Positions 6,222-32,083 of a DNA stretch of 32,363 nucleotides are shown here, piece after piece. This DNA is from a virus. Under the pieces are notes generated by a model, which was not told the DNA's origin, ran no database searches, and worked only from the letters and a program-made list of their open reading frames with translations. Location of the stretch: the IMG/VR virus record IMGVR_UViG_3300010413_000111, positions 1-32,363 of that record. The stretch is one strand, 5' to 3'. The translations under genes and the position numbers were made by a program. Each line of letters starts with the position of its first letter. Positions within the stretch are counted from its first letter, which is position 1.

Positions 6222-6244
6222 AAGACCCCTTATTCAGGGGTCTT
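6222..6244 (-). terminator. Intrinsic terminator of the three-gene insert
   Basis: AAGACCCCT pairs with AGGGGTCTT around a 5-nt loop; on the minus strand it is followed by TTGCTTTTT. The stop codon of the PD-(D/E)XK nuclease gene (6232-6230) lies within the hairpin, so terminator and gene end are compacted together. Confidence 0.85.
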
Positions 6245-6745
6245 GTGATTATGGTCTACATGCAGGGCCTCTCTGGGCACCCAGTAATACGATGGGGACC
6301 CCTCTTTGTTACCCTCTTTTGGGGGCCTCTCGAGCAGCTCTTTCAGTGTGCAATAACCAGCATACACAAATATTGGAGAGTGGTCAATCATTAGCACATA
6401 GAAGTCACACTTGGGATCTTTAGGCTCGGTCGGGCAGCGCAGAGACCACGCACCGTCTGGGGTAGTTGTCTTCACATCTATAGTAACTCCGGACTTGGTA
6501 ATGAAGTCATACTCACCAGCTCTTGTAGACGCATTCTGTGAAAGATCCATAAATAGATTGAACATCTTGGCAAAAGCGTATTCACCACAGAGCCCCATGA
6601 TCTCCACTTCTCTAAATGGCCTGTCTGTAGTGTTATGGAAGTCCTCCACAGATGTCTTACGATTTATCTTGTACCTCATATTAGCAAGATAAATCATAGC
6701 ATCAATTTCAGTCTGATCCAGGACTACCCTAGAAGGTGGGCTCAT
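6230..6745 (-). CDS. PD-(D/E)XK-type nuclease-like protein
   Basis: 171 residues. The pattern expected of a PD-(D/E)XK fold is visible: Glu55 in a helix (GEYAFAK), Asp80 (AGEYDF), and D90-V-K92 in the strand VTIDVKTTT. In this family these residues bind the divalent metal and cleave DNA. The start at 6745 has GGGAG 8 nt upstream and overlaps the preceding gene by 17 nt. It is the last gene of a three-gene unit with the metallophosphoesterase. Possible roles are DNA processing, packaging help or attack on foreign or host DNA; the sequence does not choose between them. The C-terminus has His/Cys residues (Cys104, Cys113, HVDHNH) but no clear zinc motif. Confidence 0.75.
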   Translation of the reverse strand: MSPPSRVVLDQTEIDAMIYLANMRYKINRKTSVEDFHNTTDRPFREVEIMGLCGEYAFAKMFNLFMDLSQNASTRAGEYDFITKSGVTIDVKTTTPDGAWSLRCPTEPKDPKCDFYVLMIDHSPIFVYAGYCTLKELLERPPKEGNKEGSPSYYWVPREALHVDHNHKTPE

Positions 6746-6950
6746 GTCTAAATCTCCCGGGCCCCTCTTTCTTTTTCATAACGTAACTACCACCACCAGA
6801 GCTTATGATCTCATAGCCCTCGTCCAGGTAGTGCGCTACTCGAGCCAGGGCCTCATCCACAGAAAAGTGCTGCGTATTCTTTACGCCCTCGGATGTGATC
6901 ACCTTCTCGAGACCGATACTAACATCTATACTAACTAGCTCAGTTGCCAT
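6729..6950 (-). CDS. Small hypothetical protein, 73 aa
   Basis: The frame stays open further upstream, but the likely start is the ATG at 6950, which overlaps the stop of the metallophosphoesterase gene by one base (TAATG). The product begins MATELVSIDVSIGLEKVITS and has a helix (SVDEALARVAHYLDEGYE), a strand (EIISSGGGSYVMKKK) and a basic C-terminus. I do not recognise a family. Tight coupling on both sides suggests it works with the phosphoesterase and the nuclease, perhaps as an adaptor or regulator; that is inference. Confidence 0.65.
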   Translation of the reverse strand: MATELVSIDVSIGLEKVITSEGVKNTQHFSVDEALARVAHYLDEGYEIISSGGGSYVMKKKEGPGRFRHEPTF

Positions 6951-8407
6951 TATATACCTACCCAGTGCCCGAGGTCCTTTCTGAGGAGCTCGGTATAGTC
7001 TTGCTCTTCGGCCCGATAAGATATACCCTCTACCTGGGCCCTGCCATTTACTACTTCGATCGGGACTATGTTGTCCCCGTCTTTGTACGAGTACACCATC
7101 GCAAACCCATTGGACCAGTTTTGTGACTTTACATGCCCCGGTACTGTGCCGTCTATCCTGCACACACAGCCTGGGGACACCGCACGAACAACCTCAACAC
7201 CCTTCCTGGTGGTGATGGTCTTTATACCAAACTCCATCCTGTGGATGTGCCCAAAGATTACAGATACATCGTGGTTTGCCAGCATAGCTTTGGCAGAGTC
7301 ACCAGAACCAGCACGAGCACGATCTCCATGCTTAGCTACCAAGTCATTGCTGATCCAGTACTCCCCGTCAGGATAGTCCCCCACCCAGTCTATACTCATA
7401 CTTTTCAGGTCGAGTAGGTAGGGTATGGTCAGTGCTGGAGGATCTTCCACCCGGTTAGCTTGACGGATATCGAAGGCAGCGATCATGTTAGTCTGCCGAG
7501 CCTTATACATCCTGTTTTCGTGGTTGCCCTCTATATAGACTATATGGGAGCTCATTGCAGCAGACCGAAACTGAGCCAACCACCACCCCATCTCATCTAT
7601 TGCGGGCTGTGTGACGTTCCTAAACTCTGGGGACCGGATAAACTTGTCAGACCAATCCGGCAGGTCCAGGTTGTCTCCCAGGAAGATGATCGTATCAGGC
7701 TGCAGGTTGTAAACACTGCTCAAGATAACGCTCAATACCCCTCTATCATGGAAGGGTGTGTACTCCCCGGTATAGAAATCTCTGTAAAAACCTACATGGA
7801 TATCTGGGATTACTAGGGTCGAGTGGTACGGTCTACGATCGTAGTCCAGTAAACGATGCTCTACCTGGGCCAAGTCCAAGTTTAGACTTATTGGTTGTAC
7901 CGTTGGGAAGATCTCTATGGGTTTCTTACGGACTAACCAAGCTTTGACCTGGAATAAGGGCTCTACATGCATCTTGCCTGTGTCCGTAGTATAGCCGTTT
8001 ACAACCCCGTTCTCCCAGACCAAGTCCTTCTCTGTCTGCTTACGGCCTACTTCCCACTTGTTCACAACATATCGATCTACTTCCCACTCTTCCAGGTCTA
8101 CGTCACACGCCTTCAAAAGATCCTCCAGGCTCAGGATGCGCCCCGGGGGACCTATGACCTCCATGTTGTTTCCTTCTACTTTTTTGGTAAACTCTTCGCT
8201 ATCTGGCTCTTCTTCCTTCTCGAAGACAGCGTCTGCCAGTTTTTCTCCCCTCAACTGTCTCCACTCTCTGATCCTGCGGTCCAGAGTTGGTCCGTACATA
8301 TCCAACTCTTCCGCTAAACTTTCAATGTCCTCTCCTATATTATACCTACGTCTTACAAGATCGTCTTTCTCACTGTCTGTTAGTGTCGTCCAAGCTGATT
8401 TAGCCAT
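6950..8407 (-). CDS. Metallophosphoesterase with N-terminal helix-turn-helix-like region
   Basis: 485 residues. The calcineurin-like metallophosphoesterase signature is complete: D202-I-H204, G-D245-N-L-D, G-N295-H296-E, H360 (VAKHGD) and G-H387-I-H389. These residues hold the two metals used to hydrolyse phosphoesters. Residues ~10-55 (IESLAEELDMYGPTLDRRIREWR) look like a helix-turn-helix, so the enzyme may act on or near DNA; the substrate is unknown. An AGGAGG Shine-Dalgarno lies 4-5 nt before the ATG, and a near-consensus sigma-70 promoter lies 26 nt upstream. It is the first gene of a unit bounded by hairpins on both sides. HTH-phosphoesterases occur in many phages, but their role there is poorly known. 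Confidence 0.9.
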   Translation of the reverse strand: MAKSAWTTLTDSEKDDLVRRRYNIGEDIESLAEELDMYGPTLDRRIREWRQLRGEKLADAVFEKEEEPDSEEFTKKVEGNNMEVIGPPGRILSLEDLLKACDVDLEEWEVDRYVVNKWEVGRKQTEKDLVWENGVVNGYTTDTGKMHVEPLFQVKAWLVRKKPIEIFPTVQPISLNLDLAQVEHRLLDYDRRPYHSTLVIPDIHVGFYRDFYTGEYTPFHDRGVLSVILSSVYNLQPDTIIFLGDNLDLPDWSDKFIRSPEFRNVTQPAIDEMGWWLAQFRSAAMSSHIVYIEGNHENRMYKARQTNMIAAFDIRQANRVEDPPALTIPYLLDLKSMSIDWVGDYPDGEYWISNDLVAKHGDRARAGSGDSAKAMLANHDVSVIFGHIHRMEFGIKTITTRKGVEVVRAVSPGCVCRIDGTVPGHVKSQNWSNGFAMVYSYKDGDNIVPIEVVNGRAQVEGISYRAEEQDYTELLRKDLGHWVGI

Positions 8408-8432
8408 AGGACCTCCTATAGAATCACACTTA

Positions 8433-8461
8433 ATTATACTATAAATATCTCAATACGTCAA
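8433..8461 (-). promoter_or_regulatory. Near-consensus sigma-70/sigma-A promoter
   Basis: On the minus strand TTGACG (8461-8456), a spacer of exactly 17 nt, then TATAAT (8438-8433): 11 of 12 consensus bases at the ideal spacing. It drives the HTH-metallophosphoesterase unit. The -35 box starts directly after the T run of the preceding hairpin (8466-8490). This promoter should be read by unmodified host RNA polymerase, perhaps early in infection or in a lysogen. Confidence 0.88.
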
Positions 8462-8465
8462 GAAA

Positions 8466-8490
8466 GGGTGCCAGGGAACCCCGGGCACCC
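8466..8490 (-). terminator. Probable terminator after the lysis cassette
   Basis: On the minus strand GGGTGCC and GGCACCC form a 7-bp stem with further G-C pairs inside, followed by TTTCTT, which runs straight into the -35 box of the next promoter. A second hairpin (8503-8522, GGCCCGTA/TACGGGCC) lies just upstream but has no T run. Together they fill most of the 150-nt gap between the holin gene and the phosphoesterase gene. Confidence 0.65.
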
Positions 8491-8557
8491 TGATAGGTGC
8501 TAGGCCCGTATTGCTACGGGCCCGTTTCTCCTTCTACTCATGGCAGATGAGATATAT

Positions 8558-8944
8558 TTATCCGGCCTCAGCTTCTAGGCGAGCTCGCTCTTCGAAGATA
8601 TCTCCCCAGGCTTCGTACACTTGAGCCTCGATCATAGCCGAAATCACTTCGACATCAATGTTGATCCCTTTAGACTGTAGTGCAGCTTCTACCTGAGCGA
8701 TAACCCACTGTTTCTTAGCTTCACCGACATTTTCCAATTGTCCGGTAAGGCCAGACTGTTCCGCTGCTTTCACAAAAGCTGCCACAAACGCCTGGGCCAT
8801 AGCCAGTTGTTCAGCAGTCAGTTTTGCTTTACCCTGGGCAATCAGGCCACGTAGCCACACGACCACGAAACCCAAAATAACAGGCAACAGCAACGAAATC
8901 ACTGTCTCGATAACGTTCTGTAAGATAGGACTCCAATCCATCAT
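8558..8944 (-). CDS. Holin, LLH-family-like
   Basis: 128 residues. One strong membrane segment at residues ~11-33 (VIETVISLLLPVILGFVVVW) is followed by a long charged helical region (KAKLTAEQLAMAQAFVAAFVKAAEQSG) and a C-terminal acidic helix. This order, and the segment around KKQWVIAQVEAAL, fits the LLH family of phage holins. Such proteins form lesions in the cytoplasmic membrane that time lysis. AAGGAG lies 9 nt before the first of two adjacent ATGs. It is the last gene of the lysis cassette, downstream of the GH25 endolysin. Confidence 0.8.
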   Translation of the reverse strand: MMDWSPILQNVIETVISLLLPVILGFVVVWLRGLIAQGKAKLTAEQLAMAQAFVAAFVKAAEQSGLTGQLENVGEAKKQWVIAQVEAALQSKGINIDVEVISAMIEAQVYEAWGDIFEERARLEAEAG

Positions 8945-8968: not shown

Positions 8969-9349
8969 TTAGTATGCTGCCGATCCTAACTTAATGGCAG
9001 CGTAAGTAATACCAGTTTGAGTATCTGTGTCCACAAACACAGCTTCTTCAACTCCGGTATCTCCACCACTGTCATCTTGCACATACAAGCTTTTCGGGAA
9101 GGGCCCAATAAACTTTTCTGCGCCAGCATTTACAGTAACCTGGAGATTGGGGATCGTCAACCCATCAAGGGATGCCTTTACGCAGTCAATGGTAACCACG
9201 ACTGCCCCACCACCAGAGTTTTTAACATGCAGCATCACACGTTCGCTTGATCCATCGAACGCATGTCCGTCAGCTGCTGCTGCAGTATACGACGGGGTGA
9301 GGCCTGTGCCTCGTACAGTAGTTTGTAGTGCTAACTCTGCTCTTGCCAT
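8969..9349 (-). CDS. Beta-rich structural/decoration-like protein, 126 aa
   Basis: The protein begins MARAELALQTTVRGTGLTPSY and has an Ig-like run of strands (ERVMLHVKNSGGGAVVVTID, LQVTVNAGAEKFIGPFPKSLYVQDD, ITYAAIKLGSA). Small proteins of this build are common in phage structural regions and are usually left unnamed; decoration of the capsid or tail is a reasonable guess. A Shine-Dalgarno (AAAGGAG) lies before the ATG at 9349. Its place between endolysin and holin is unusual and is noted as a finding. Confidence 0.7.
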   Translation of the reverse strand: MARAELALQTTVRGTGLTPSYTAAAADGHAFDGSSERVMLHVKNSGGGAVVVTIDCVKASLDGLTIPNLQVTVNAGAEKFIGPFPKSLYVQDDSGGDTGVEEAVFVDTDTQTGITYAAIKLGSAAY

Positions 9350-9366: not shown

Positions 9367-10314
9367 TTATACTTTTTGTGTCCAGTCTTTATGAATCCAG
9401 CCCTTGATCTTTAGCCAATCCCCGCTTTCTGTTGCAATGGGGACCACACTATCTTTCAAAAGCTCGCCAAGGTCTGCACTGGTTGCATCGGGCTTTTCCC
9501 TAACATTCAGAGCCCCGGCAGTAATCTTTACACTGTATCCGCCCTCTTCGGGAGGCTCGACAGGAGGAGGAGTCGGCTCAACAGATCCACCCCACGCTGC
9601 AGCAATCCACTGCCTCATCTGGGTTTCGTTGCCAATCTCCCACCTGTCCCAGTCCACAGCTCTGGACTGCACCTCTCCCGCAGGTGCTAACTTGTGATCA
9701 GATGTTTGGTGAAGAATAACTCTATTGCGATCGACCCTCTTTGGAAGGGTAGGCGGACCAGCATGCTCTTTATAACCATACCAGGAATACTGAGCAAGCC
9801 ACCAGAAATGGTTGTTCAACTCCTCTGTAGTCCAGGAGCTTAGCCATTGGTCCACTAGCGTATACCGGGTATAGATAATAGGACGCACACCATCATGGTC
9901 TGCTACTCGCTGGGACATCTCCCGGGTTTTCTTTGCTATTGTGGCCCACAGCTGGTTCTGTCCCAACTCCAGGTCAATAACACGAGGAATAATCTCTATT
10001 TTAGGATGTATCTTGATCCAGTTATCAAACTGACGCTTGACATCCTCGCTGGGATACAGCACATGATAAGATGTACGGTACATTCCGACATCCCCGGCAC
10101 CGTTCCAGTTAGTCGCATACCATGGGTCAACATATCCCCAAGATATACCTGCTCGAGCTGCCATCCCCAGAACCCCAACATTGCGGGCTATCTGGAAGTT
10201 TACCTGCCCCTGGTACTTCGAGTAGTCACGCCACAAAGGGCGGTCAAGTCCAGTGGGGTCCTCAAACAGCCCCGCCAGCTTCGCTAATATAGTAAAAGGT
10301 ACTTTTTCTGCCAT
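9367..10314 (-). CDS. Endolysin: GH25 muramidase with C-terminal SH3b domain
   Basis: 315 residues. The GH25 lysozyme barrel shows D30 in RDYSKYQGQVNF and the catalytic D114-L-E116 in IIPRVIDLELG, plus the usual later segments PIIYTRYTL, WWLAQYSW and ILHQTSDHK. It would hydrolyse the N-acetylmuramic acid beta-1,4 bond of peptidoglycan. A Pro-rich linker (residues ~244-255) leads to an SH3b domain (~257-315: ALNVREKPDATSADLGEL, GDWLKIKGWIHKDW) that should bind the wall. About 25 residues precede the barrel (FTILAKLAGLFEDPTGLDR); this is not a clear signal peptide. The modular make-up favours a Gram-positive host. Confidence 0.93.
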   Translation of the reverse strand: MAEKVPFTILAKLAGLFEDPTGLDRPLWRDYSKYQGQVNFQIARNVGVLGMAARAGISWGYVDPWYATNWNGAGDVGMYRTSYHVLYPSEDVKRQFDNWIKIHPKIEIIPRVIDLELGQNQLWATIAKKTREMSQRVADHDGVRPIIYTRYTLVDQWLSSWTTEELNNHFWWLAQYSWYGYKEHAGPPTLPKRVDRNRVILHQTSDHKLAPAGEVQSRAVDWDRWEIGNETQMRQWIAAAWGGSVEPTPPPVEPPEEGGYSVKITAGALNVREKPDATSADLGELLKDSVVPIATESGDWLKIKGWIHKDWTQKV

Positions 10315-10800: not shown

Positions 10801-10820
10801 CCCCCGGTTTATACCGGGGG
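10801..10820 (-). terminator. Strong intrinsic terminator
   Basis: CCCCCGGT (10801-10808) pairs perfectly with ACCGGGGG (10813-10820) over a 4-nt loop; on the minus strand it is followed by TTTTTCCTTTTT. The stop codon of the DUF1617-like gene (10811-10809) lies inside the hairpin. Confidence 0.93.
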
Positions 10821-11186
10821 TCCGTCGTCTTCGAGTTGCAGCAGGGGCTCTATCCTTTGCAGATCTATGGGAGATAACTCAAGGTTCTCCAGCATATCGA
10901 GCGTAATGGGAGGCAGAACAATCTCAACCTCCTGCCCCATCAGCTCTGCAACAGATTCACGAACCTCCTGCTCTTTCTCCGGTGGAACCTGCTTTTGTCC
11001 CTCTTCTAAGGCAGCTTCAACAATTTTCTGACGTTCTTCTTCGAACAGGTCAGCTTCCTTACTGACCTTCTTTAGCATCTTGTTGATATTGTAACTTGTC
11101 TTCACTGGCATCTTTGTGTTAGCAATAATAGACAAGACTTGTACGGAGGAAAGGATTTCCCCCAACGTAAGGGTAACTGTTTTCAT
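10809..11186 (-). CDS. DUF1617-like phage protein
   Basis: 125 residues. The order of features fits my memory of DUF1617: an N-terminal helix (VQVLSIIANTKMPVKTSYNI), a Lys-rich helix (KMLKKVSKEADLFEEERQKIVEA), then a short strand, EVEIVLPPITLDML, followed by LELSPIDLQRIEPLL. DUF1617 proteins are small phage proteins of unknown role, often found near tail and lysis genes of phages of Firmicutes. AAAGGAG lies before the ATG. The gene has its own extended -10 promoter (11208-11236) and a strong terminator, so it forms a one-gene transcription unit inside the late region. Confidence 0.7.
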   Translation of the reverse strand: MKTVTLTLGEILSSVQVLSIIANTKMPVKTSYNINKMLKKVSKEADLFEEERQKIVEAALEEGQKQVPPEKEQEVRESVAELMGQEVEIVLPPITLDMLENLELSPIDLQRIEPLLQLEDDGPPV

Positions 11187-15826: not shown

Positions 15827-16950
15827 TATCCAAGTCCCCCACTCAACCCAAGTCTTGCAAGCAGGTACTCCAGGTTCCTGTCACCACTAGCTAATGTAAG
15901 GTTCATAGTATTACTCCCTGCATTATACTGGGTAGACATTACGAACCCAAGTACTTTATTCTGCTCTGCAGAAGCTGCTGTTGCCCCACTAACATCATTA
16001 TTAGTTACGACAATAAAATCACCAGATCTTATCATATAAGATGGTACGTAGCTTCCTGCATTATTACGAACATACCCAGTTATAGTTACAGGTCTACTCT
16101 CTACGGGCCACGAGTATTTTAATCTAGCAACCTCTAACAGGTCCAGCCCTATCCCAAGACCATATTCACCAGTATTCAAAACACCCTCCCTAAGACCGTA
16201 TTTTGCCTGGGATGCCCCGTCTTGTGCTGGTGTTGGGTACATTGTGGGCCCTACAGAATCTGTTGCTGGATCATCATATAATACATAAATTTTATTGTAA
16301 ACATTGTCCAGAGATGCAGAGAACCCGACACTTCCCTTGGATGTGTCTGCAGTTACATAGAAATCAGGAAACACCTCTCTCTGCTCAATAATTATTTCCC
16401 CAACCCTGTTATTATACAGAGCTATATATGCCGGGTGTATGTCATCTGTACGATAGCCAACTTTGAGCATCTCCAGTATGATGTCATTTACTTTAGACTC
16501 CTCATCGTAGTCTTGAGGCCCTACAGGAACATTACAGTTAGCAGCTAGCAAGATCGGCCCCCAGGAGGGTACCAAAGACGCAGCCTCTTGTATCACTGTA
16601 CCATTCACCGTATCAGCCCCCAACCACAAGGCCGTGGGAACCGTTATTTTTGAACCATCCTCCCAGAAACCACGAGCAGTTACAGCAACACCTTTATTGA
16701 CTGTACTTACCCCAGTGACCCTGCCATTGTAAATATACCTACCAAGTTTATCGTATATAACACATTCTGACCCGAGAACAGCCCTAGCAAAAGACGCTGC
16801 AGCATTCTCCGGAAGGGGAACCTCCATACTTGCCTCAGCAAATCCACCATTCAACTGGGTGCCGAATGACAGAGACTCAGAGATATCATGACTTCCCCCA
16901 AGGGTTCCCCACATATTCTGATCTTGCTGAAACAAAGCGAAAAATTTCAT
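15826..16950 (-). CDS. Baseplate hub / Tal-like tail protein
   Basis: 374 residues. It is coupled by one-base overlaps to the Dit-like gene upstream (16950) and to the fibre gene downstream (15826). It begins MKFFALFQQDQNMWGTLGG and has hub-like features: an early beta domain (GSECVIYDKLGRYIYNGRVTGV), a region ending in FPDFYVTADTSKGSVGFSASL, and a final strand set (NTMNLTLASGDRNLEYLLARLG). Such proteins close the tail tip and carry the fibre. Gene order (tape measure, Dit, this gene, fibre) supports the call better than sequence does. It is too short to carry a peptidoglycan hydrolase domain, and none is visible. Confidence 0.7.
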   Translation of the reverse strand: MKFFALFQQDQNMWGTLGGSHDISESLSFGTQLNGGFAEASMEVPLPENAAASFARAVLGSECVIYDKLGRYIYNGRVTGVSTVNKGVAVTARGFWEDGSKITVPTALWLGADTVNGTVIQEAASLVPSWGPILLAANCNVPVGPQDYDEESKVNDIILEMLKVGYRTDDIHPAYIALYNNRVGEIIIEQREVFPDFYVTADTSKGSVGFSASLDNVYNKIYVLYDDPATDSVGPTMYPTPAQDGASQAKYGLREGVLNTGEYGLGIGLDLLEVARLKYSWPVESRPVTITGYVRNNAGSYVPSYMIRSGDFIVVTNNDVSGATAASAEQNKVLGFVMSTQYNAGSNTMNLTLASGDRNLEYLLARLGLSGGLG

Positions 16951-18389
16951 TATTCCACCATAGTCCTGTACGCAGGAACATAACTTACTCGCACCTTGAT
17001 CTCTCTGTTGTGTTCCTGGTAATTGGCAGTACCAATTGTTTTAAAATATATCCTTTGGTTTACCCCGGGCACTAACTTTAGGGGCTCTAGTGCTCCATGG
17101 AAGGGTAACCATACTTTACCACCCCCAGAAACATACTCTAATCCCTGCCAACCGTCATCAACAGCAGACCCCCCACCAGTAGCTTCCCTACATACCCACA
17201 TCCGCACTCCGTCACCAATGGGCAGAAACTCTATGTAATCCATATAAACAGTACAAGCCTGTGTAGTAGCTATCCAAGTCCCAATCCATAAATCTTCATG
17301 GAAGGTGCCTAGACTAGCCAGCTCTGGGGCCCCTGGAGGTAGATCTATAACCCCACACACTGTTGAGTAAGAGTAAGACCCCTCATGCCAGTCACTTTGA
17401 ACACGTATGCCGTAAGTAACATAATCGTCAAACCCCATCGACCAAGCAGTATAGTTTGGATTCAGATTTTGCCTATTATGCGTGGTGATTGCTAAAAACA
17501 ACCCCTTAGTATTATTATATTCCCAAGAGTACTGCTGAAATATAGGCACAGATGACCCACCAAAACTGAGGGCCCGATAGCTGCCACCATAACCACCACC
17601 AAAAGTACTCCCAGACGCCCTGACACAGCTAGCACTATCATAGAAGAGGTTTGTAGGGTACCCCGTCAACTCCCTCTGCAAACCCATATATAAATAATCG
17701 TAATTGTAATAGTTGGCATCCCCGGGGTCTACCGTTACCTTGATTGGGCAGGGTGCATCACCATCTACAGACCCTCCAGAGATAGTAACATAATTGGTTC
17801 CAGTGTTCTTTACCCTGAGACCACTTGTGTTATTACTTCCGTAACTATTGCTTAATGGTACGGCAGTCATACTTGTGCTACGAGGAGATATCTTCCACGC
17901 ATCAGGACTAAGCCACAATTTTAGAACAAGATTGGGTACAACATACTCTCCATAAATCTCCCCATGGATACCCTCAACAGACCACAACTCGTCTGGGAAT
18001 ATCAGCTCTCCTCCATATACTTCCAAATAAGTAGCATTTCCGGCACCTTCCCAGGCATACTTCAACTCAACCCGTTCTCCCCTTCCCGTTCGTGCTCTTT
18101 GTGACACGTTCTTTAATAGGTTATTGACCCTGTGTACCTGGGATACCGCACCAGACCTGGACGTAGCGTAAATAGAAAACAGTATAGTGCATTCTCGTGC
18201 ACTATAAGATTCATTTATCATTATTCCGATACCTGGGCGTAGCACACCGAAGTCCCGAGATGCCTGTGGTAATCCAACCTGGAACCCTCCGTCAGCAAGC
18301 TGGTATCTTGTTCCCGATCCCTGACTGGTTGAGAAAAATGTTAGAGTATCCGAACCATCGGATACAGAAAGGTTAAATAATTGTGCCAT
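16950..18389 (-). CDS. Distal tail protein (Dit-like)
   Basis: 479 residues, with AGGAG 6 nt before the ATG and 9 nt after the tape-measure stop. The N-terminal half has the beta pattern expected of a Dit-type ring (AQLFNLSVSDGSDTLTFF, then QVHRVNNLLKNVSQRARTG and VELKYAWEGAGNATYLEVYGGEL, and VVPNLVLKLWLSPDAW). The C-terminal ~280 residues are an additional beta-rich, Tyr/Gly-rich region, longer than in simple Dit proteins, that could contact the host surface or other baseplate parts. Identification rests on position right after the tape measure plus the N-terminal pattern. Confidence 0.7.
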   Translation of the reverse strand: MAQLFNLSVSDGSDTLTFFSTSQGSGTRYQLADGGFQVGLPQASRDFGVLRPGIGIMINESYSARECTILFSIYATSRSGAVSQVHRVNNLLKNVSQRARTGRGERVELKYAWEGAGNATYLEVYGGELIFPDELWSVEGIHGEIYGEYVVPNLVLKLWLSPDAWKISPRSTSMTAVPLSNSYGSNNTSGLRVKNTGTNYVTISGGSVDGDAPCPIKVTVDPGDANYYNYDYLYMGLQRELTGYPTNLFYDSASCVRASGSTFGGGYGGSYRALSFGGSSVPIFQQYSWEYNNTKGLFLAITTHNRQNLNPNYTAWSMGFDDYVTYGIRVQSDWHEGSYSYSTVCGVIDLPPGAPELASLGTFHEDLWIGTWIATTQACTVYMDYIEFLPIGDGVRMWVCREATGGGSAVDDGWQGLEYVSGGGKVWLPFHGALEPLKLVPGVNQRIYFKTIGTANYQEHNREIKVRVSYVPAYRTMVE

Positions 18390-30893: not shown

Positions 30894-31286
30894 TTATACT
30901 GCCCTATAGATATCTTTCATCTCTTTGAGCCAATCTCTAACCTCAAGAAGATTAGGGGTAATCACATCAGAGAGCTCTTTTACAAAGTCCCAGTATCGAT
31001 CATCCTCTCGACCAGAGTCTATGCAGAAAATGATCTTCTTTCCCAGGGCCCGAGCATACCCAACTTCTGCTGCCATACCAACCCCGCTGGGGTTATCCCG
31101 GGACAAGTAGGCTACCAGGATATCGCAGTGCTCTATGGCAGTAGTGTCCCAGGTAGTGTACTGGTCAGAGTATTTCAGGCCATGGGTCCTGGGATTAAAG
31201 AAGTATATTTCTTCTGGAAACTCCCGGATCAGCTGGCCCTGCCAATCTGTTCCACGCATCCCCCCCGCTAAATAGACTTTAAGCAT
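30894..31286 (-). CDS. Nucleoside 2-deoxyribosyltransferase-like protein
   Basis: 130 residues. The fold's marks are clear: an N-terminal strand with Gly turn (KVYLAGGM), D55-ILVAYLS, then NPSGVGMAAEVGYARALGKK, where Glu74 fits the catalytic nucleophile. Family members swap bases on deoxynucleosides or cleave the N-glycosidic bond; related phage proteins act in nucleotide salvage or base modification, and the fold is shared with NAD-linked enzymes. The substrate cannot be read from sequence. It is the last gene of the unit ahead of the head genes and is closed by a terminator 6 nt after its stop. Confidence 0.82.
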   Translation of the reverse strand: MLKVYLAGGMRGTDWQGQLIREFPEEIYFFNPRTHGLKYSDQYTTWDTTAIEHCDILVAYLSRDNPSGVGMAAEVGYARALGKKIIFCIDSGREDDRYWDFVKELSDVITPNLLEVRDWLKEMKDIYRAV

Positions 31287-31290
31287 CTTA

Positions 31291-31737
31291 TTACTCCTCT
31301 ACAATCTCAACGTACCTGCTTATTTCTGATAGGGGCACTGAGTAAAACTCGTCAGGTTCCTCTGTATATCGATTTTCAGACTTTATGACTGGGGCACCCT
31401 CAATAACTTTACCGTCAAGAATCAAAAGAAATTTCAGGTCATCTCGAACAACAAAGTAGTAGAAGAGTCCGGCCCTATCTATAAACTTCTTTTTCCTGAA
31501 AGGTACGTTTACTGTCCTAAAAGGGAATGGACCGGACTTCCAGTTGGCTCGCCTTTCTACGTCAGCAGTGAAACTACTTCGCACCCCGTAGTGTACAAGT
31601 AAATCGACATCCTTAGTACCGAAAGGATACAACACAATGTCCCGGATACCTGGGGAGCTTTTCAGAAAATCCACCACAACTTTTTCAGCGGGCTTTCCAT
31701 ACTCGTCGTCCAGGGACTTGTCATAGACTTTCGTCAT
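31291..31737 (-). CDS. Possible PD-(D/E)XK nuclease-like protein, 148 aa
   Basis: The likely start is the ATG at 31737 (AGGGGG just upstream), overlapping the previous gene by 17 nt; the open frame to 31818 lies inside that gene. A nuclease-like core is suggested by D43-V-D45-LLVHY, D59-V-E61-R62-R63, and the following NWKSGPFPFRTVNVPFRKKK. The order D then (D/E)xE/K on adjacent strands fits PD-(D/E)XK enzymes, with Arg in place of the usual Lys. The C-terminus is beta-rich (FYYFVVRDDLKFLLILDGK). The family call is tentative; a non-catalytic relative is possible. Confidence 0.6.
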   Translation of the reverse strand: MTKVYDKSLDDEYGKPAEKVVVDFLKSSPGIRDIVLYPFGTKDVDLLVHYGVRSSFTADVERRANWKSGPFPFRTVNVPFRKKKFIDRAGLFYYFVVRDDLKFLLILDGKVIEGAPVIKSENRYTEEPDEFYSVPLSEISRYVEIVEE

Positions 31738-32083
31738 CTTCCCCCTGGTACTCAGGCAACGGAACACCATCAGGAAACAGCTCTGGGTGCTCGAGCCGGA
31801 CCCAGGCAATAAAAGCATTCCCGATAATCTTTAGCCACGTTTCCTGGTTAATCAGGTACTCTTTAGCAGATGTCAAACGCCCAGAAGGCGTATGAGATAT
31901 ACTCATAGTGCCCGCATAGTAATCGTCAAACCGACCGAATATGCGGTCATCCTGGTCAGGGTACTCTCCCCAGGGTACAACAGGACGCCGTAGCCACTCG
32001 TCCCCCCAACGCTCATCGTCTTTCCTCATCCTTTCTGTAAAGGCGATAAAAAACTCCGGTAAGAAATCCAGTATACTTGGCAT
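31721..32083 (-). CDS. Hypothetical protein, 120 aa
   Basis: ATG at 32083 with AGGAG upstream. Aromatic and charged residues dominate: RMRKDDERWGDEWLRRPV, DRIFGRFDDYYAG, and ETWLKIIGNAFIAWVRLEHP. The patterns ERWGD.W and WLKI.GNA.IAWVR.EHPE are reminiscent of small proteins seen in many phages, but I know no function for them. It sits between a short unknown gene and the nuclease-like gene and overlaps the latter by 17 nt, so the three are probably co-translated. Confidence 0.65.
   Translation of the reverse strand: MPSILDFLPEFFIAFTERMRKDDERWGDEWLRRPVVPWGEYPDQDDRIFGRFDDYYAGTMSISHTPSGRLTSAKEYLINQETWLKIIGNAFIAWVRLEHPELFPDGVPLPEYQGEDDESL

Follow-up and report, generated by a model that had tools for sequence, protein, structure and literature searches.

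A predicted separate transcription unit among phage late genes encodes a helix-turn-helix metallophosphoesterase and a restriction-like nuclease

We analyzed a 32,363-base IMG/VR virus fragment (here called the window), which carries portal, capsid, tail, lysis and fibre-like genes on its minus strand. Between the holin gene and downstream structural-looking genes lie three overlapping genes (Table 1), coding for a metallophosphoesterase with an N-terminal HTH (MPE), a 73-aa protein and a PD-(D/E)XK protein. Judged from the signals that flank them, the three genes form a well-supported candidate for a separate transcription unit, and we tentatively favor the reading that it is a phage nuclease unit, most likely directed against host or competing DNA. 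To transcribe the unit, host RNA polymerase would not have to wait for the late message. The MPE would act as a DNA phosphodiesterase like Mre11, SbcD and PolD DP1, recruited to DNA through its HTH, and the PD-(D/E)XK protein, as a small restriction-like endonuclease, would add cuts. The gene for the 73-aa protein overlaps those on either side, and its product may be an accessory or a regulator. With host or competing DNA as the most likely target, the attack would lead to takeover and nucleotide salvage, and phage DNA would be spared through its own methylation.

Table 1. Positions in the window of the three-gene unit, its signals and the neighboring lysis genes.
Feature	Position	Strand	Remarks
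HTH-metallophosphoesterase (MPE), 485 aa	6950..8407	-	HTH about 11-52, beta-rich linker 74-160, calcineurin-like phosphoesterase 195-465
73-aa protein	6729..6950	-	1-base overlap with MPE gene; relative in sister phage only; purifying selection
PD-(D/E)XK protein, 171 aa, DUF5843/PF19161	6230..6745	-	17-base overlap with 73-aa gene
Holin (Phage_holin_6_1)	8558..8944	-	upstream of unit
GH25 endolysin with SH3 domain	9367..10314	-	lysis module upstream of unit
Sigma-70 promoter TTGACG-17-TATAAT	8433..8461	-	11/12; both hexamers kept in sister phage, spacer diverged
Hairpin H2 AGGGTGCC-C-GGG-GTT-CCC-T-GGCACCCT, then TTTCTT	8465..8491	-	terminator-like; identical in sister phage
Hairpin H1 GGCCCGTA-GCAA-TACGGGCC	8503..8522	-	sister phage has GGCCCATA-GAAA-TATGGGCC, a compensatory change
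53-bp identical block	8455..8507		longest non-coding exact match between window and sister phage genome
Intrinsic terminator closing unit	6222..6244	-	9-bp stem, T-rich tail; kept in sister phage (L002)

An earlier, sequence-only reading of this DNA had placed the three genes correctly, with overlaps of 1 and 17 bases, and our analysis confirmed the sigma-70 promoter that it had proposed (11 of 12 bases, 17-nt spacing), the closing terminator (6244-6222) and the insulating hairpin toward the lysis genes, where we found two upstream hairpins, H1 and H2. The promoter is the window's best and the sole intergenic site with at least 10 matches. Since about 0.7 sites with at least 11/12 matches are expected by chance per 32 kb, the match on its own is modest. 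What decides is the comparison with a sister phage, contig G001 (locus L002, 43.8 kb), in which the same trio stands in the same place with the same promoter and terminators: the hexamers are kept where the spacer has changed, and the terminator is kept as well, which takes the promoter and the unit beyond chance. The unit should best be extended to about 8522, taking in the conserved upstream hairpins.

For the 76-nt upstream segment the folding energy is -38.5 kcal/mol (z -3.9). Pairing in H1 is preserved in the sister phage through a G-C to A-T change, and the terminator-like H2, with the same sequence in both phages, would keep the unit apart from the lysis genes. A 53-bp block is identical in the two phages although synonymous sites of the neighboring genes are near saturation (pS about 0.7); it takes in a portion of H1, the whole of H2 and the -35 box, and this conserved promoter and hairpin block is a candidate binding site. 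The block includes GCACC, GGGTGC and GCACCC, so that an antiterminator-like fold could form as an alternative to the terminator hairpin. We rejected three other identities for the block: a host-derived attachment site, as no bacterial genome of the collection searched contained its 26-bp core exactly; a widespread element, as a 36-bp stretch matched the sister contig alone among viral contigs; and the Rfam ftsZ-DE element, whose match is attributed to chance, at 18.7 bits where the gathering score is 72.2.

All three ORFs are under purifying selection, pN lying far below pS between the window and G001: 0.13/0.70 for the MPE (80% protein identity), 0.14/0.72 for the 73-aa ORF (77%) and 0.22/0.75 for the nuclease (67%). 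G001 also encodes a ribonucleotide reductase, a dUTPase, an SSB and an N6/N4 DNA methyltransferase (L136:2415-3377, that is, G001 16415-17377), the last preceded by a sigma-70 promoter with 12/12 consensus bases (G001 15873) and known from the sister contig alone, as the window stops short of the matching region. Apart from the promoter of the unit, the consensus sigma-70 promoters in G001 precede nucleotide and DNA genes, including those for the ribonucleotide reductase and the methyltransferase. Because the sister phage has the methyltransferase, the ribonucleotide reductase and the dUTPase, its gene content is consistent with recycling of host DNA while the phage's own DNA is spared.

The domain calls of the earlier reading were borne out, and its view that both enzymes have DNA-acting folds is supported (Mre11/PolD-DP1-like for one, restriction-enzyme-like for the other). 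The MPE scores 30.1 bits against Metallophos PF00149, for a cut-off of 21.5 (E 8e-7), and shows the DxH, GDxxD, GNH, H and GHxH motifs by which that family is recognized, with a complete set of metal ligands (D202/H204, GD245, N295-H296, H360, G386-H387-x-H389). It also matches phrog_20266 at 3e-48 and phrog_221 at 5e-23. Its structure model (pLDDT 73) comprises a trihelical N-terminus (helices 11-23, 28-34 and 40-52), modelled with moderate confidence at a pLDDT of only about 50-72 over the HTH region, then a long stretch of beta structure (108-160) and finally the phosphoesterase domain. In structural comparison this last domain comes closest to the PolD DP1 exonuclease (Z 14.9) and to Mre11 (Z 14.2), and Mre11 and SbcD also stand high in the Foldseek ranking; LpxH reaches Z 13.6, within about 1 of the PolD DP1 and Mre11 scores. 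Because LpxH scores nearly as well as Mre11, a DNA substrate is no more than favored for the MPE, and it may instead act on something other than DNA.

A precedent for the favored reading is Gp48 of mycobacteriophage A10ZJ24, an MPE with early expression that breaks down host DNA and cleaves DNA in vitro (PMC12287305). The window MPE shares with Gp48, as with phrog_20266 and phrog_221, the character of a calcineurin-like phage phosphoesterase, and Gp48, which we compared by description only, is a DNA-degrading one; the window protein differs from it by the added HTH and beta linker, by its place after the lysis genes and by the nuclease gene that follows. Identities of 25-27% (E 8e-6 to 8e-9) link the window MPE to many mycobacteriophage MPEs, the similarity to cluster A being distant. 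Another role is suggested by the title of a study cited in PMC10580990, which describes D29 Gp66, a calcineurin-family phage phosphatase, as a 2',3'-cyclic nucleotide phosphodiesterase. By analogy, the MPE of the window could hydrolyze cyclic nucleotides or other signals in counter-defense or regulation, with the nuclease as a separate passenger, and the nuclease does usually occur without an MPE. We consider this quite unlikely, as DNA-binding heads recur throughout the family, which would be odd for a small-molecule enzyme.

The 171-aa protein matches DUF5843 (PF19161) with 42.7 bits against a gathering cut-off of 25 (5.5e-11), and E55, D80 and D90-x-K92 are invariant among 27 aligned nuclease sequences. 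For its AF2 model (pLDDT 83) the top structural rows are PD-(D/E)XK enzymes, with Z up to 9.0; the nearest folds are NhoI/Eco15I (Z 8.5-9.0), I-Ssp6803I and DpnI, and the acidic residues and D/E-x-K motif sit on an alpha-beta core, as in the PD-(D/E)XK superfamily. The BisI-family enzymes NhoI and Eco15I (PMC11347163) are the solved folds nearest to it, at about 10-13% identity, a likeness seen at the level of structure. A profile search with the nuclease alignment among PDB sequences hit tyrosyl-tRNA synthetases (E about 1e-4, residues 9-72 only), which we judged to be chance, because the structure model and the catalytic residues show a PD-(D/E)XK fold.

PADLOC returned one weak match, for the nuclease alone, to 'Type II restriction enzyme' (REase_II, E 0.004), and the defense role raised by the sequence-only reading is possible. 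Together with the restriction-like fold and with the promoter and terminator that the unit has to itself among the late genes, this match would fit a superinfection or prophage-borne defense cassette, a true moron, that cuts the DNA of other phages. However, the nuclease had no match among plasmids or bacterial genomes, and a search for integrases of the tyrosine type found none in the window or G001, both of which are fragments; we hold such a cassette to be very unlikely.

Relatives of both enzymes were recovered from viral contigs by alignment-based scans, where single-sequence scans had found nothing. The MPE profile scan gave 330 loci, 80 of which were kept. The relatives share the linker and the MPE domain and differ in a swapped N-terminus, which is an HTH, Myb-like, an InsA-type zinc ribbon (PF03811, in 9 of 19 family members, best 2.5e-5) or none; the heads are all of predicted DNA-binding types. 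At the position of H204 most relatives have Q. A comparison with phage records at the DNA level gave no relatives of the unit.

The closest MPE relative outside the sister phage, at 39-40% identity, is encoded by locus L056. There the gene comes after homologues of the tail and lysis-region genes that the window has at 10809-11186 and 8969-9349 and is preceded by an HhH-domain gene; TTGTAT-17-TATAAT, with a -10 box, lies upstream of it (read by eye, under the scan threshold) and a strong terminator behind. In Clavibacter phage CN1A the MPE gene stands right behind the holins, with a GIY-YIG gene downstream. Both phages thus have the linker and MPE architecture at the same place after the lysis region, and marine terminase-linked phages have the architecture as well, but the DUF5843 nuclease and 73-aa genes are absent from all of these; few close genomes were compared. 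An MPE gene with its own transcription behind the lysis region therefore seems to predate the trio, to which the genes for the 73-aa protein and the nuclease were apparently added, and the comparison points to the MPE as the core of the unit. We also weighed whether the HNH and GIY-YIG genes that follow MPE genes in actinophages could be counterparts of the nuclease in the window, and rejected this; they have different folds and may be homing endonucleases.

The MPE gene keeps to fixed positions among the late genes, behind the lysis region or, in many marine phages, in the terminase operon, and in this it is unlike random cargo. Of the earlier interpretation of the unit as a moron, the part that found support is an independently transcribed unit within late genes, with its own promoter and terminator; the part that found none is imported cargo.

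Terminase linkage in the relatives makes packaging a strong rival explanation. The MPE would then be an accessory of packaging or genome-end processing whose head binds a phage site and whose enzyme domain trims or nicks DNA with terminase, the copy in the window having been relocated behind the lysis genes. A terminase small subunit gene (PF03592/phrog_51) lies directly upstream in 66 of the 80 MPE loci, and in 54 of these 66 the large subunit gene is just downstream; the loci are redundant, and the small-subunit neighbor is found in 10 of 17 representatives. In loci L130-L134 the MPE gene has fibre-type genes on one side and a gene occupying the portal position on the other, the order in Microbacterium phages ISF9 and Necrophoxinus is MPE, HNH-like gene, hypothetical gene, terminase, and the conserved, dyad-containing 53-bp block adjoins the MPE gene of the window. 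Against this, the adjacency to terminase genes that is seen in the marine relatives and would mark a packaging accessory is absent from G001, where terminase lies at 10.3-13.3 kb and the MPE gene at 41.4 kb, about 28 kb apart, and the unit carries its own consensus host-type promoter. On balance we find a packaging accessory somewhat unlikely. The separately transcribed nuclease unit, our preferred reading, has points against it too, among them the terminase adjacency in many relatives, the near-equal LpxH score and the Q in place of H204 in most of them.

In loci L059 and L057 and about 64 further marine loci, terminase small subunit, zinc-ribbon MPE and large subunit genes are consecutive; some marine loci have a conserved 65-85-aa gene between the MPE and large subunit genes.

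HNH proteins work with terminase in DNA packaging of HK97-type phages. A broader proposal is that the linker-MPE proteins are phage-wide, DNA-targeted MPE nucleases with swappable DNA-binding heads, which would work at specific phage sequences, here for instance the 53-bp dyad block, and process or package the genome in the place of HNH proteins, DUF5843-type partners joining them repeatedly; we regard it as unlikely. Phage MPEs are common and have rarely been tested, and few have an assigned role. A constant linker and enzyme core, swapped heads and terminase or lysis neighbors yield a testable claim, that these are site-directed DNA enzymes. The component folds are all known already; in the open-licence PMC literature we found no description of a head-swapping, terminase-linked MPE family or of DUF5843.

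The sequence-only reading had taken the three genes for one self-contained system, and this was not supported. The nuclease profile scan gave 42 loci, most without an MPE gene nearby; 13 of the 16 nuclease records tested lack any MPE, the sister phage is the only one of the 80 MPE loci with the nuclease beside it, and 14 further MPE records, the sister excluded, have no nuclease. Outside the window, the complete trio was found in G001 alone and the genes are elsewhere mostly apart, which is largely the routine separation that the earlier reading had itself named as speaking against it. The exception is an analogous arrangement in Methylophilales phage MEP301 and its relatives L015, L017 and L018, where genes for a phosphodiesterase, a 74-79-aa protein and the nuclease follow the lysis genes in the same overlapping order. 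In MEP301 these are gp11-gp10-gp09, right after the endolysin gene, and the DUF5843-type nuclease is 34% identical to that of the window; the MPE, in contrast, has neither the HTH nor the linker and resembles the window MPE only remotely, and the 74-aa protein is unrelated to the 73-aa protein (hhalign probability 0.3%). For the latter, the sister-phage copy was the only relative found, and no homology to the small protein behind marine MPEs was detected.

MPE and nuclease genes also meet in other layouts, being convergent in L029-L031 and on one strand with three genes between them in L034. The repeated association is suggestive of a real link, the alternative being a shared late-region insertion spot. 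As the order of MPE, small protein and nuclease recurs in unrelated phages, it offers a defined pair to test together. In another phage group (L020, L024, L025), a DUF5843-type nuclease gene lies directly behind a terminase-like gene.

Two further genes of the window lie near its far end. The 150-aa ORF at 31291-31743 recalls a PD-(D/E)XK nuclease in its D...D-V-E-R pattern and had no match in Pfam or PHROG. Just upstream of the portal region, a gene at 30894-31286 resembles a nucleoside 2-deoxyribosyltransferase (PF15891, 3e-12).
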